Shown: in pieces, positions 11,425-17,248 of the stretch
Numbering within the stretch: the first letter of the stretch is position 1
Layout of the letters: each line of letters opens with the position of its first letter
Origin: Tritrichomonas foetus
Taxonomy: Eukaryota > Parabasalia > Tritrichomonadida > Tritrichomonadidae
Reading direction: 5' to 3'
NCBI GenBank assembly: GCA_001839685.1
Contig: MLAK01001195.1
Location: forward strand, 1 to 17,248
Length of the DNA stretch: 17,248 nt
Program-made: the position numbers and the translations under genes
The notes under the pieces: model-generated
Database searches by the model: none
What the model saw: the letters and a program-made list of their open reading frames with translations, nothing else
Told to the model about the DNA's origin: nothing

Positions 11425-11427
11425 TTA
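11424..11427 (-). terminator. Stop-overlapping TAAA polyadenylation signal
   Basis: On the minus strand the stop reads TTC TAA AAT, so TAAA includes the stop codon. AATAAA is not formed, only the minimal trichomonad tetranucleotide. Confidence 0.45.
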
Positions 11428-13035
11428 GAAAGAAATGAGAACTCGAACTGGCTTCTTCTTTTTTCCACGTCCACCCTGCTGCTGTGGCGGTGGAGGATGA
11501 TTAGCGCCGTCTTTTTTGTGGGCAATCTGAAGGTTTCCTGGCTGCGGCCTCTCAATTGTCACTGAGATCCCACCTTGTTGCTGAACCATTTCCTGTGATT
11601 GCTTAACAACTGGTGTCTGTTGTGGCTGAGCAGAAAGTTGAACTGGTTGTTGAACTGGTCGTTGTGGAGGTGGAGGTGGATGTGGAGGGTCGTTTCGTGG
11701 GCGGAATCTGAATTTATCATTGACATTTTGGTTATTTTTCCTTCTTGGTGTATTTTCAATATTTGGCTCGTTGCTATTTAGATTGTCATCACTAGTAGCA
11801 TTAGTTAAGTAGCTGTGGTTTTTCCGGTTACGATTTTTATTTCCATTTTTAGTATATCTATTGTTGTGATTGTTTCCATTATTGCTGTTATTGTTTGGGT
11901 TTGAGTTAGTCGTGAATTGGCTTGGCGATGATTGCGTGGAATGAACCTGCTGGGGTGAAGTGATTGATGATGATCTAACATGAATCCTGTTTAGTTCAGC
12001 TCGCTTCTCAGGAAGTGGAAGAAAGGCAACCATGTCATTGAAGAGGGAATCTTTCTCTTGTGCGCAAGTCTTCACAAACACCGAATAGAATTCCTCAGCA
12101 GAAATCTTACTGGAGACATAAAATCTTGCTGCTTTCATTAATTCTTCTTTATCTTCTTCAGTGAGTACTTCATTGAGTCTCTGCATGAATTTTCTATTTA
12201 ATTCCTTTTTCCTGACAATGCTTTCATTCTCTCCAATATTTCTGGGTTTATCATTCCTATCATCGTCAGCAAAATCGGCCAAATCTATGACACCTGGACG
12301 TTCATTATGGACAGTTTGGAGATGAATCATGAGCTCCCCACGTGTGGCAAAAGCAATGAGATCATGTGTGCTACATTGTGGATAATGGCAAATAAAATGG
12401 CACTTTTCATGATGACTAATTAATTCAGCGGCGTCTTTAAACCACTTTATGATATTCTGTTTTGCACATATTTCACATCGATGATGCTTTTCAAGCATGT
12501 GTTTGGCAAGAGCATCATGATCGAAGCATATCTGATTGGGACAACACTGGCACCGGGGATGTTGTTGCTGTAGATGGGTTTGATATTCTTTGTTGGATTT
12601 AAAAACAGGCAAGTCTCCTGGCAAAAAGCGGTTAGATGCGTGACATATTTGGCATACTCTCATTTTGTGAATTTTGACGTGGCTGGCGAACATATCGAAA
12701 GCACTCATACTAAGTGAACATTCTGGACATGTGAAATGAAAAAGAGAAGAAATAAAATCGTGAACGTTTTCTCGATCGAAATAGAAAATTTGGAATTTTG
12801 AGTCATATTTTGGCCTTTTGCTTTTGCCCTGTGAATAAGTTTGAATAGATAAATCTGTTGAGACAATAGGATGGCCTTCGAGAGGCTTTTGGCAATAATA
12901 ACAATTTGTATGATGATAACAACGGGTATCGCGGATGTAGCAATTTATGCACATATTGTTGTGGTCACAAGGAAGGAACACTCGGTATTTGATTGGCTCC
13001 ATACAAAAGAAGCAATGCTCTTTTTCATTCTCCAT
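11425..13035 (-). CDS. ZNF598: ZNF598/Hel2-type RING and C2H2 zinc-finger E3 ubiquitin ligase
   Basis: A 536-residue protein from an ATG (MENEKEHCFF). The RING sits at residues 8-48: C8xxC11, C23xH25, C29xxC32, C39 and C45xxC48. It is followed by a run of Cys/His fingers to about residue 245: CPECSLSMSAFDMFASHVKIH, CQICH...HLQQQHP, CCPNQICFDHDALAKHMLEKHH, CEICAKQ...HHEKCH and CHYPQCS...HLQTVH. RING plus this finger block is the diagnostic layout of ZNF598/Hel2, which senses collided ribosomes and ubiquitylates 40S proteins to start ribosome-associated quality control. Residues at about 275-350 are a helical segment; about 355-500 are Asn-, Pro- and Gln-rich and disordered. The C-terminus (GRGKKKKPVRVLISF) resembles the basic-then-hydrophobic tail of family members. 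The length is somewhat short, from a compact linker. The family call is strong; ribosomal substrates are inferred. Confidence 0.9.
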   Translation of the reverse strand: MENEKEHCFFCMEPIKYRVFLPCDHNNMCINCYIRDTRCYHHTNCYYCQKPLEGHPIVSTDLSIQTYSQGKSKRPKYDSKFQIFYFDRENVHDFISSLFHFTCPECSLSMSAFDMFASHVKIHKMRVCQICHASNRFLPGDLPVFKSNKEYQTHLQQQHPRCQCCPNQICFDHDALAKHMLEKHHRCEICAKQNIIKWFKDAAELISHHEKCHFICHYPQCSTHDLIAFATRGELMIHLQTVHNERPGVIDLADFADDDRNDKPRNIGENESIVRKKELNRKFMQRLNEVLTEEDKEELMKAARFYVSSKISAEEFYSVFVKTCAQEKDSLFNDMVAFLPLPEKRAELNRIHVRSSSITSPQQVHSTQSSPSQFTTNSNPNNNSNNGNNHNNRYTKNGNKNRNRKNHSYLTNATSDDNLNSNEPNIENTPRRKNNQNVNDKFRFRPRNDPPHPPPPPQRPVQQPVQLSAQPQQTPVVKQSQEMVQQQGGISVTIERPQPGNLQIAHKKDGANHPPPPQQQGGRGKKKKPVRVLISF

Positions 13036-13047: not shown

Positions 13048-14933
13048 TAATTGGAAAATGTCAGAATAAAGGTGAAAAATTTCAAAAGAAATTGAAGAGG
13101 TTGATCAGATTTTGCAATTGTGAACCACAAATATAAATGTTGAGGGAGAAACTTTTTCATTGCATAATCAAACCTGACATTCAAATTATTCCAAGGTATT
13201 CGAAAAGGTAGAATAAGATTATCTGAGAGAATAGTAAATGCATGAAACCATCTATATCATGATTGCAAATAGTAAAACCAGCCAAATTCCTCATTTTTCT
13301 CCAATAATGACTGAATATCATTTAATAAGTGAAATACCAATTTATGTCTGATAATTGAATGAAATTCTGTAGGAAATGGATTAATATATAGTTATCCTCG
13401 AATTCTACTTCGAATAATCAAAAAATATTGATTTGATATATATTTCCCTAAAATGAAAACGGCCCGTGATTCGTAGAGTATCTTATCATAAAATATCATC
13501 ATTTGCTGCAATCTATTGGTTTATTTTTACCGAAAAAAAATAATATTTCCGAATTAGAAATTTCAAACATATAGTACTGAACAATTGAGGCTGAAACGAG
13601 TTATCACGGAATAAATCTTTATAAAATTAACTTTTAGAATTGGAATGTGAGTCTCTCAGGAATTATTGTAAAGATACGATTAATTTAAATGACTCTATAC
13701 AATCCTATTGAATTTTGTGTATTCAATTTTCTGAATTTATCTTATTCAAAAAAATTATAAAGAGGGGAGATTCAGATAATGAGAGTAGATGATAAATCAT
13801 ATTTAAATGATGATTTGGGCAAACATTACCAAAATAAACGAAATGATAGAATTTGATCATTTGAATGTGTCCCTATCAAAAATTTCAATGATTAGAATTT
13901 AAAGATATTTTTTGAATCACTGTCACTCATTTTTCATGTGCATTTTGACAAAGTTTAGATAAAGATGCATCATACAAGGCATTACAAATAGAATTCAATA
14001 GGAAATATCCATCAATGTGTGATTTTATCTCCGATTTTAAGGATAAACTCCGGTGAAGTGATGGCAAATCGACGATAAGAAACTTTTTGATGAAAAAAGT
14101 CCTTTTTATAAACGTGCTTTTTTTATCAATTTTGAATCCATGATCTGTCCACTATCAGTCTTCGGAAATTCGGTTTATCTCATTTAATCAAAACGATAAT
14201 CATCAACAAAGCAGCTATAAAGCCGTCCTCTAACAAGGGAGTTCAAATTAAAGATCCTAGAATGCAAAAAGTTATCAAAAATTAATATTTTCTCCTTCGC
14301 CGGGATCTCTTCCCAAAGTTATGAGCAAAATATATATCTTCAAAATTTTTTTATAGATTTTCATAGCAATACACTAATTATCTTTTTTGTCAAAAAATAT
14401 AGCAATTCATTTTTTAATTAATATTCATTTCATCAACGAAGATGAATCTAATGCATTTCTGGAGACAGATTTTTACTACAAGAGAAAAGTTATAAAAGAA
14501 GTTCGGAATGTTAACAATCTATTTTTCATAATCTTGCATAAATTCCTTCAGAATAATTATCTATTGAAAATTCTCCAATTTTATATATAGGAGTCTTAGA
14601 TTCTGTTGATATTCCACCAATCGCAAAAATTTTATTGATTCACTATTTATAGTTCTTCATTGTTGGAATTCGAGCCAATTGCAATATTCTTAATTATTGC
14701 AACTAAACTAATCAACAATTTTCGGTATTCAAGTACAGATTGAGGAGTCAAAAGTTTTCGATAAGGATGAATAATGAATTTATTGATGTAAGAAAGGCAT
14801 GACACTAGTCATACATTAAGAGCTAATGTAAGCAAGGATTTATATTGCTTCAAAGAATTTAGAAAATTGTTTTGTTGCATCAACTACTGAAGAACATGGC
14901 TGTATTTCTTGGAAAAGCACATACATTCTATGA
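13048..14933. other. Gene-poor region between the Hel2-like gene and the transposase-USP gene
   Basis: About 1.9 kb with no supported gene. Short stop-free runs (for example 14387-14590 and 14832-14933 on the plus strand) have no recognisable domain. If the gene to the right belongs to a transposon, one terminal inverted repeat should lie here, downstream of its stop. Its partner is outside the window, so it cannot be recognised. No tRNA-like or CRISPR-like structure was seen. Confidence 0.5.
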
Positions 14934-17248
14934 TTAATCTTTTGTAAAGAAAGCAATAACAGATTTTTGGGAAATTTCCTCCAATTCTTTTTGCATATTT
15001 TCATCTGAAAGTTTACTTAGTTCATATATGATTTCATCATCAATGATGACTATTTCCCCTTCAGAGAAAACTACAGTCTTAAAGTGAGACTTGGAATTTA
15101 TATTGTTCCCAGGGTTAGTGATAATTGAATTAAGAATGTAATAATTATCGTCAATTTCTAACATTCTTGGAACATCGACATCTCTATTATTAAACATGTT
15201 TGTGCTTTTCCTGTCAAGTTGAATAATTAATAATGTTGGAAACTCTAGCTCTAGATTAGCATTGTAATTTTGATGACCTCTGCTACAAAAAACTGAATGA
15301 ATATCGCGAATGATGCACTCCCTAAAAGATTCAAATTCATGATTTATTTTGATTTGTATTCCGTACGTGTCTCCATCAATCAAGGGGCTGTGACAAAATG
15401 TGCAAAATTGTTGATTCAGTAAATGCTTATGAAAATAAATATCCTTATTTTCAATTCCAGAAATATCCACTATATATTCGATTGCAGAAAAAACATCAAA
15501 TTGTTGACAACCATTTCGAATGAATGTTGTTTGCACACATTGAGGCATTTCAATAGAATGATCACTATTTAGAAGTTTACATATAAAATGATAGAATACT
15601 GGGAAAGTGATTTGAATATTCTGCATATTTCTTCTGAAGTGCTCTGAACTCAACAAGGCTTGGATGGCTGCATTTAGCCAACAGGTTTGATATAGGTTTT
15701 TGATACCAACGCTTAAAAAATATGATCCATTTGACATCATTAATCTTTTGAGTTTTTGGTTTTCAAGATAATAGCTCAAATCGTTTTGATTTAATAATTG
15801 CACATATTTTTCTGATAAACAATCAGAAATCGAAACCTCCAAATCCTCAGAATCGTCTTCTGACGTTATTAATGCCTGTTCTAAATAGTTTTCAAAAGCG
15901 GCTTGAGTTTCAGGAGAGTCTTCTTCTTCTATGAAAAGAGATTCTCTGATTAAATCTAGCATAATTGAATCAAATGAATCTTGACATTCATTTCCTTCAA
16001 AATCTTCTGGAATTTCCCTTAATATGGATTTTGTGTGTCCAATATCACTTTCCTTCCCATTATTGCGGTATAAATTCCTTAATTTGTTTTGTTTTTCGCG
16101 ATAAGTAATATTTTTAATTTTATATTCACGATGTACTGAAGTAAAATTTTGCAGCGTATCATTAAAAATTTTTGTCTTTGTCATTTTTGTTTGGGAAAAT
16201 AAATTCTTCATCCAGGTATCTTCGTTATTTGAAAGAACTGCTAGGTTATTCCTTAATTCGTACGAGTTCCGAAATGCATAGAGCTTCGGAGCGAAAAAAA
16301 GTCGTGCATGATGAAATGATTCTAATTTTTGTGTTGAGTATGCTTGCGAAGAAAATTTTATAATTTTTTGAGTATTTTCAAGAAATTTTATAAAGACTAA
16401 TTTAGTGTTTGGGTTGGATTCATCAAAATATGCTCCTTTATCCACTTCAGTTTTGTGATTACACAGAGGAGTACAATTTCTTGAAAAATGATTCACGATG
16501 TTCAAGTACTTATCAACTCGCAACTGGTCATTAGGTTCAAATTTTATCAAATATTTCACATACCTTATAAAGTCAGGGATTAAATTAGAAAATACTCCTT
16601 TGGTTTTTGTACTATTGTTTATTTTGACAAGCATTCTTTTTATTGACGAAAGCGCATGTCTGGGATCAATATGACGATTAAATTGATTCATATTTTTAAC
16701 ATGTTTCCACAAACTGGCATCTAAATCCGAACAAAAACCAGTAAACTTTCTGTCGCTAATAACATCACGTAATGATTCAATCCCTACAATTTCAAGAGTA
16801 TTTGGCGAAACATTAGTATTTACATTCCCCCTTAAACCCGGATAAGGTTTAGTAAAAAATGCTTGGCCGACAATTTTTCCTTCAAGATTCATTATTGTCG
16901 TTGTATGCTGTTTGGCATAACGAGGATGTGACCAGGATCCGTCCACAAAACAACAATTATTATCAATCATACTGTTTTTCCATTTTAGCATAGAATTTGA
17001 AGTCATTTCTTTTATTTTCAAGCCAAGATTGCTCTGCTTTTGATATACAAGAGAATTTCCATATGTTTTTATGCCGATTAATCCCAGAAAAAGTCTTGCT
17101 TTATAGATAGTTATACCCGAACAAAGAATGGCGGCTAAATAAGATTCGCATGACGTGTCTTTTCTAATATCATAATGAAAAGGTATTTCTGGGTTATTGT
17201 CATCATCATTATTATTGTTATAATTGTTATTATTATCATTATTATTGT
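14934..17248 (-). CDS. Kolobok/THAP9-like transposase fused to a ubiquitin-specific protease (5' end outside window)
   Basis: At least 771 stop-free codons run from the right edge to a TAA at 14936-14934; a frame starting at 17021 would use TTG and cut off conserved sequence. The edge encodes an Asn/Asp-rich tract, then YLAAILCSGITIYKARLFL, typical of transposase N-terminal helices. Transposase core: FVDGSWSHPRYAKQHTT (catalytic Asp codon 16941-16943), FCSDLDASLWKHV (Asp 16725-16727 or 16719-16721), a C-x3-C-x-H patch near 16460, and KLESFHHARLFFAPK (Glu 16320-16322). An acidic linker follows. USP domain: GIKNLYQTCWLNAAIQALL (nucleophile Cys 15681-15683, oxyanion Asn 15696-15698), CQQFDVFSAIEYI, FCTFC, and YYILNSII...SHFKTVV (His 15084-15086), ending SVIAFFTKD. 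All catalytic residues appear present. Either a transposon gene or a domesticated copy; no terminal repeats are visible. Confidence 0.8.
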   Translation of the reverse strand, partial: NNNDNNNNYNNNNDDDNNPEIPFHYDIRKDTSCESYLAAILCSGITIYKARLFLGLIGIKTYGNSLVYQKQSNLGLKIKEMTSNSMLKWKNSMIDNNCCFVDGSWSHPRYAKQHTTTIMNLEGKIVGQAFFTKPYPGLRGNVNTNVSPNTLEIVGIESLRDVISDRKFTGFCSDLDASLWKHVKNMNQFNRHIDPRHALSSIKRMLVKINNSTKTKGVFSNLIPDFIRYVKYLIKFEPNDQLRVDKYLNIVNHFSRNCTPLCNHKTEVDKGAYFDESNPNTKLVFIKFLENTQKIIKFSSQAYSTQKLESFHHARLFFAPKLYAFRNSYELRNNLAVLSNNEDTWMKNLFSQTKMTKTKIFNDTLQNFTSVHREYKIKNITYREKQNKLRNLYRNNGKESDIGHTKSILREIPEDFEGNECQDSFDSIMLDLIRESLFIEEEDSPETQAAFENYLEQALITSEDDSEDLEVSISDCLSEKYVQLLNQNDLSYYLENQKLKRLMMSNGSYFLSVGIKNLYQTCWLNAAIQALLSSEHFRRNMQNIQITFPVFYHFICKLLNSDHSIEMPQCVQTTFIRNGCQQFDVFSAIEYIVDISGIENKDIYFHKHLLNQQFCTFCHSPLIDGDTYGIQIKINHEFESFRECIIRDIHSVFCSRGHQNYNANLELEFPTLLIIQLDRKSTNMFNNRDVDVPRMLEIDDNYYILNSIITNPGNNINSKSHFKTVVFSEGEIVIIDDEIIYELSKLSDENMQKELEEISQKSVIAFFTKD
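17193..17248 (-). repeat. AAT-type triplet repeat encoding an Asn/Asp tract
   Basis: The right edge is a low-complexity run of ATT/GTT/ATC triplets, read on the minus strand as Asn with some Asp and Tyr. It stays in frame with the transposase-USP gene, so it is likely a coding linker ahead of the transposase rather than intergenic satellite. Its full length is not visible. Confidence 0.75.

Follow-up and report, generated by a model that had tools for sequence, protein, structure and literature searches.

Can a transposon carry a deubiquitinase as part of its own transposase and, if so, what would the enzyme do there? The question is raised by one end of a 17,248-nucleotide contig of Tritrichomonas foetus, a cattle parasite (MLAK01001195.1, C802 in our set; hereafter the window), where a transposase and a ubiquitin-specific protease (USP, peptidase C19) are joined in one reading frame. 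The window was compared with the assembly of the same organism (63.7 Mb, 1,064 contigs), the only eukaryote genome in the comparison; genome counts given below are lower bounds. The frame occupies positions 14934-17246 of the minus strand and has 770 stop-free codons. The initial annotation, which named no strand, had reported an unbroken frame of at least 771 codons with a Kolobok-type DDE transposase and a USP on a trichomonad mobile element, and this description was borne out. The 5′ end of the frame is open, because the contig ends there.

The translated frame (all coordinates on the minus strand) begins with an Asn/Asp-rich, microsatellite-coded stretch at the contig end (17193-17246). 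It is followed by a Kolobok-type DDE transposase domain at about residues 95-345 (16212-16964), assigned by homology in an alignment with four relatives, with D102, D174/D176, D194xxH197, the zinc-finger-like H253/C258/C262/H264, and E309. An acidic linker, evident from the translation at about residues 395-510 (15717-16064), separates this domain from the USP domain, which spans residues 513-745 (15012-15710) according to Pfam UCH, a host-USP profile and hhalign. Alignment placed the Cys box NLYQTCWLN, with N517 and the catalytic C522, at 15672-15698, and the His and Asp boxes, with H721 (SHF) and D736/D737 (IIDDE), at 15033-15089. The motifs quoted in the initial annotation are present (DGSWSH, residues 102-107; CSDLD, 172-176; LESFHH, 308-313; NLYQTCWLN, 517-525; SHFKT, 720-724). 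Its label 'THAP9-like' found no counterpart, as no THAP domain was found in the visible frame, whose N-terminus is missing.

A frame of this kind could be an assembly chimera, or two distinct genes read as one; indeed, the contig stops in a microsatellite, and a second copy of the element, on another contig (C437), contains a gap of 2,476 N. Within the element, however, that second copy matches the window at every one of the 3,056 bases compared, the joined part included, and the sequence outside the element differs. The same layout is, furthermore, repeated in another family (family B, below) at at least ten other loci. The junction is thus no chimera, unless one error was repeated in both contigs, and we regard an artefact as extremely improbable.

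The element, here family A, ends in the window at 14037-14063 with TTAA (14037-14040, the expected target-site duplication) and a 23-bp terminal inverted repeat, GGATAAACTCCGGTGAAGTGATG. Between this end and the gene lies a non-coding stretch (14064-14933, downstream of the gene on the minus strand) that is the same in both copies. The C437 element measures 6,156 bp including its gap, which starts at the base corresponding to window position 17093; both of its ends read TTAAGGATAAACTCCGGTGAAGTGATG and carry the same 27 bases as the window end. About 1 kb separates the start of the element from the start of a ZNF598-like gene located downstream of it (11425-13035, minus strand; PAH_ZNF598 E 3.8e-8, RING-like E 1.4e-5).

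The first 17 bases of the end, with up to two mismatches, occur at 95 genome sites, versus 4 for the reversed control. Exact matches number 81, and 34 of them make 17 neighbouring inverted pairs less than 8 kb apart. Twelve of these pairs span 2.8-3.2 kb and two span 1.1 kb; the three others measure 3.7, 5.3 and 6.2 kb, and the longest is the C437 element. Two of the 16 other pairs (L035, L036) were compared with it; they are 3,111 bp long, with a gap of 1,276 N, and 1,119 bp long. About 490 bp of the end downstream of the gene are 94.6-95.1% identical to C437 and about 270 bp of the other end 88-89%, and the present sequence of these two elements (outside the gap of the longer one) contains no transposase frame. 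Since family A has its ends in common with shorter elements that lack a visible transposase frame, it appears, from these two examples, to be the coding member of a wider group whose other elements are non-autonomous.

Pfam supported one half of the annotated fusion directly. UCH matched residues 513-745 (E 4.5e-5, 23.6 bits, just below the curated gathering cut-off of 23.9), whereas the transposase half alone matched no transposase model at E 1. It can be recognised as a transposase because its relatives in the same genome, found with phmmer at L013 (E 7.7e-22), L015 (2.4e-19) and L018 (3.5e-18), match PF20700, 'Mutator-like transposase' (L018 8.5e-13, L013 1e-12, L015 1.6e-9). Weaker phmmer matches were obtained with family C (E 1.3e-11 and 1.4e-11). 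All five aligned rows share the DxD of the second D, the DxxH and the closing E, and the first D is present in all four rows that reach it. The conserved zinc-finger Cys between DxxH and E is kept in four of five rows and is absent from L015.

Available portions of the Kolobok literature describe a DDE transposase in which C/DxxH and a zinc finger precede the last E, a TTAA target and RR/YY termini (PMC9587614), and a THAP domain that is 'usually' present (PMC6004289). Family A starts with GGATAAACTCC and family B with GGGGCAACTG, each inverted at the far end, consistent with the 5′-RR...YY-3′ termini that set Kolobok apart from piggyBac. TTAA stands outside both inverted ends of the C437 copy, and its duplication was demonstrated in family B (below); the N-terminal ORF of family B showed no THAP domain. 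We also considered a Mutator assignment, after the name of PF20700. Mutator-like elements duplicate about 8-9 bp of their target; the duplication in family B is the 4-bp TTAA, and A has no match to PF20700 at E 1, and this assignment was rejected. The window element thus shows most of the features expected of a Kolobok-type element.

To what extent is the other half a USP? Families B, C and D, described below, exceed the UCH gathering score that A narrowly misses (51.6, 36.1 and 85.3, respectively). We built a profile from 20 USPs of this genome, taken from the 143 UCH matches listed and mostly picked for a whole domain within one short stretch. In a 37-sequence set, this profile matched the window protein at E 1.7e-6, whereas no decoy did better than E 0.51; the 32 decoys comprised 20 shuffled and 4 reversed sequences, 6 other proteins of the window and 2 transposase-only proteins. 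Alignment of profiles by hhalign with the 20 host USPs gave a probability of 97.2% for the USP half of the window, 0.18% for the transposase half used as a control, and 99.6% for families A, B and C together. A single-sequence search of the PDB returned 12 weak matches, the best (E 0.19) to the USP28/USP25 Cys box. The structure prediction proposed with the initial annotation assigned no fold: models of the whole frame (3 alignment rows) and of the USP half (4 rows) had mean pLDDT of 29.3 and 35.9, unusable for that purpose, and a fold search with the USP-half model gave no match below E 0.001 and no USP among the 50 matches listed. Of the 143 UCH matches, six are family D copies, and some genes contribute two matches each; even so, the number of deubiquitinases is large for a single protist.

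The layout of the window frame recurs in the T. foetus genome in families B and C, as a search for other two-domain copies revealed; both have the order DDE-linker-USP, with an acidic stretch ahead of the USP. Family B is identical at three loci over 730/730 residues and at seven over 725, and its USP half (270 aa) is identical at 15 loci. Eleven exact pairs of its ends were found, ten of 3.3-3.5 kb and one of 1.1 kb. One family B element is inserted in a 20-bp tandem repeat, and its excision in silico with one TTAA kept restored 66/68 period matches, compared with 58/72 when two TTAA were kept and 50/64 when none was. The period being best restored with a single TTAA, the target duplication at this insertion is the 4-bp TTAA.

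Two further observations concern this family. A stretch of nine A (GAA AAA AAA ATC) marks a -1 change of frame between its 222-aa N-terminal ORF and its DDE-USP ORF, and is present in all five copies matched by a length-tolerant pattern (L018:3601-3637 and four more); the offset would stem from programmed -1 frameshifting or from a homopolymer that was systematically miscalled. Inverted pairs of about 238 bp whose ends, TTAAGGGTCAACTGCCAT, differ from the family B end by two mismatches are probably a family of MITEs.

Family C (UCH E 7.2e-9) was found at three loci. At one of them (C755) the transposase is split across two frames beside ambiguous bases, and a pattern search of the genome found no inverted partner for the family C end. 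The genome also holds Kolobok-like ORFs of 425 and 408 aa that consist of the transposase only. The USP is therefore not required by all such elements, and is an addition to some families rather than a constant. Another relative (C592; L025:3218-5697) has a Kolobok-like frame after a stretch with a weak, below-cut-off match to DUF3447 (E 4.9e-4); it is apparently a broken copy with its USP-like end in another frame. A 465-aa USP frame on C326 (L031:234-1628; UCH E 7.3e-15), in which no transposase was found, matches the family C USP at E 6.7e-8 and is possibly a donor, a leftover or a host gene. Longer candidate frames of 1,190, 1,563, 1,998 and 7,992 aa (the last partly read) proved to be assembly gaps translated as X.

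The genome-wide UCH search also revealed six identical frames of 747 aa, family D, in which UCH (residues 28-306, E 6.8e-24) is combined with DDE_3 (573-699, E 7e-23), the latter presumably marking a Tc1/mariner (IS630)-type transposase. Here the USP is at the N-terminus, opposite to the Kolobok-like families. The full 747 aa are identical at eight loci and 699 aa at a ninth; L029:2091-4331 (C21) is one of these loci. Two of them have 2,689 bp in common at 99.9% identity with different 5′ flanks, one of the 3′ flanks being a gap. The database entry for this protein, TRFO_12536, is named hypothetical or USP domain-containing protein. Family D scores best among the 73 DDE_3 matches in the genome; the two largest other DDE_3 groups (frames of 289 and 446 aa) do not overlap with the UCH matches listed. 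As family D, with its DDE_3 domain, is distinct from the Kolobok-like A, B and C, USP fusions occur in two transposase superfamilies of this genome, Kolobok-like and Tc1/mariner-type.

Between D and its diverged copy D′, dN/dS was 0.19 in the USP and 0.08 in the transposase, at a dS of 1.84 that is near saturation and with a bootstrap 5-95% range of omega of 0 to 0.28. For the closer pair, D′ and C226, omega was 0.55 (0.30-1.15), compatible with neutrality. The ratios hint at constraint, short of proof.

Is the USP of the window family a catalyst? Alignment with the 20 host USPs defined 15 host-invariant columns. Eight of these are conserved in A, namely the catalytic Cys with the Asn upstream of it and the Asn that follows, the Gln, the Asp of box 2, a Gly, the His and the latter Asp of the pair. 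Seven are lost: the Glu of box 2 (QQDxxEF), a Phe, a Lys, a His, the Gly that precedes the catalytic His, the Trp and a late Tyr. The columns of C522 and of N517, which we take to be the oxyanion position of the USP Cys box, are invariant in 20/20 aligned host USPs, and the His box and the Asp are found in A as H721 and D736/D737. What we read as the third catalytic position of USPs is Asp in A and C, Asn in D and Ser in B; in the host rows listed it is Asn or another residue, directly preceding the invariant Asp. The domain might therefore be a non-catalytic passenger, or a remnant that binds ubiquitin: just eight of the 15 columns survive in A, B has Ser where hosts have Asn or Asp, transposase-only relatives exist and one dN/dS pair fits neutrality. 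However, all five of A, B, C, D and D′ have preserved the catalytic Cys and His, even though A is only 26% identical to B, 18% to D and 17% to D′. A retains the upstream Asn and the Asp pair as well, and USPs are present in two superfamilies at opposite ends of the protein. We thus consider a non-catalytic domain unlikely for the window family; an idle passenger is possible for the diverged window copy and for B with its Ser.

As to the origin of these domains, a tree was built from 26 USPs. Its longest three terminal branches were C, A and the solo USP, and the Kolobok-like USPs (A, B, C) stood on one side of a branch in 0/200 bootstrap trees; the tree thus neither establishes nor excludes a single capture in the Kolobok-like families. 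Protein-database searches, two of which scored solely the candidates with the most shared words, returned only T. foetus proteins (that of the window, TRFO_12536, TRFO_27008 and TRFO_37885).

These results are best explained jointly, we think with about an even chance of being right, if an autonomous DNA transposon of the Kolobok superfamily that has moved recently has the greater part of its coding end in the window, and if the C-terminal USP of its transposase deubiquitinates the transposase or its complex in cis. The transposase would bind the element ends, cut, and insert at TTAA in a cut-and-paste manner, where the target comes from family B and the chemistry is what we infer. The USP, tethered by the acidic linker on the same chain, would be an active deubiquitinase; its residues are observed, its activity we infer. 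Since it rides on the transposase, it would act on whatever is in reach, that is, the transposase itself and the complex on DNA. Removal of ubiquitin would slow degradation or extraction of the complex, and slower removal would allow more transposition in a host whose ubiquitin system is large. Both roles suggested in the initial annotation, shelter of the transposase or its complex from the proteasome and a change of ubiquitin on host chromatin, are plausible. In favour of this explanation we counted the two loci, the inverted ends with TTAA, families B, C and D, the kept catalytic residues, the D/D′ omega, and the precedents of OTU and Ulp1 on Ginger1 and of VTD and OTU on Helitrons, as given in the available portions of PMC2836005 and PMC9741609. 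Against it we counted the UCH score below cut-off, the seven of 15 columns lost, the failed models, the transposase-only ORFs, the near-saturated dS of D/D′, the closer pair that allows neutrality, the split C755 locus and the family C end without a partner.

Alternatively, the USP may act not on the transposase but on chromatin or repair factors (ubiquitinated histones, the clamp or break-repair proteins), and so facilitate excision, integration or the repair of gaps at the donor or the target. We rate this as a serious rival, if clearly less probable than action in cis. A DDE transposase would carry the USP to the element ends and to the target. A profile of the A, B and C USP halves and one solo USP matched 102 PDB sequences at E ≤0.01, the best 60 of which all belong to the USP family; USP46 was at the top (E 6e-14), and USP12 and yeast Ubp8 were among the many USPs matched. 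Ubp8 acts on histone H2B. However, this result may be driven by B, C and the solo USP; the match is generic and need not reflect A, and nothing points to a substrate. A role in repair for OTU and Ulp1 on transposases was proposed by Bao et al. (2010; PMC2836005, in the part of the text available).

A cysteine protease in frame with another enzyme might also cut the fusion protein itself or a partner, with no role in ubiquitin-dependent stability. Known USPs cut after ubiquitin, and Pfam finds no ubiquitin-like unit in the visible frame, which makes self-processing very unlikely. Deubiquitination of the transposase or its complex is our preferred reading. Families of the same layout in one genome suggest that ubiquitin removal may help elements to jump or to survive. 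With the ends of A and B defined, a single active-site change (C522A in A) could test this idea.

A broader reading, which we advance tentatively and consider rather doubtful, is that parabasalid transposases are hindered by ubiquitin tagging as part of a host ubiquitin-based genome defence, and that different superfamilies would each have captured an active USP as a recurrent counter-measure: C-terminally in the Kolobok-like elements, N-terminally in the Tc1/mariner-like ones and possibly in another type in T. vaginalis. If USPs were indeed captured repeatedly by different superfamilies, it would suggest that cells tag transposases with ubiquitin for removal, and that transposons reverse the tagging.

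How does the fusion compare with known systems? The initial annotation knew of no USP fused to a transposase. That claim goes too far: the available part of Bao et al. (2010; PMC2836005) mentions a T. vaginalis protein, XP_001314237.1, that combines transposase_11 with peptidase C19, likewise a C19 protease with a DNA transposase in a trichomonad. That protein was assigned to pfam01609, and PF01609 had no match here at E 0.001; the two were compared by description only. Apart from that protein, the portions of the open-access literature available to us, titles and abstracts included, describe no USP-transposase element; a USP on a Kolobok or Tc1/mariner element, recent multicopy USP-transposase families and such fusions in two superfamilies of one genome were not found there. 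Kolobok lineages 0, D, E, H and P have accessory proteins (PMC9587614, in part) and have in common with the window element TTAA, RR/YY termini, DDE with C/DxxH and a zinc finger. Accessory domains are frequent among them; those named there are exonucleases, a His-Me nuclease, a RecQ helicase and KolX, whereas here the domain is a USP, and the word 'protease' is absent from that text. Ginger1 likewise has a cysteine protease of the ubiquitin/SUMO pathway at the C-terminus of its transposase, but the proteases are of OTU or Ulp1 type and the transposase is of another superfamily (PMC2836005, in part). The Helitron VTD and OTU domains are transposon-borne deubiquitinases as proposed here, and VTD activity was measured; however, Helitrons lack a DDE transposase, and the active-site layout of VTD is unusual (PMC9741609, in part). 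Ulp1 on Mutator is also known (PMC2836005 and PMC9741609, in part). Since ubiquitin-pathway proteases are already known on transposon proteins, the kind of fusion is not new. Within T. foetus, family D resembles A in being a multicopy USP-transposase, and differs in its Tc1/mariner-type transposase and N-terminal USP. In 2010, scattered domain fusions had led to the proposal that the ubiquitin pathway has a part in DNA transposition (PMC2836005, in the part available); here, recent multicopy families in one genome have a deubiquitinase-like domain within the transposase itself.
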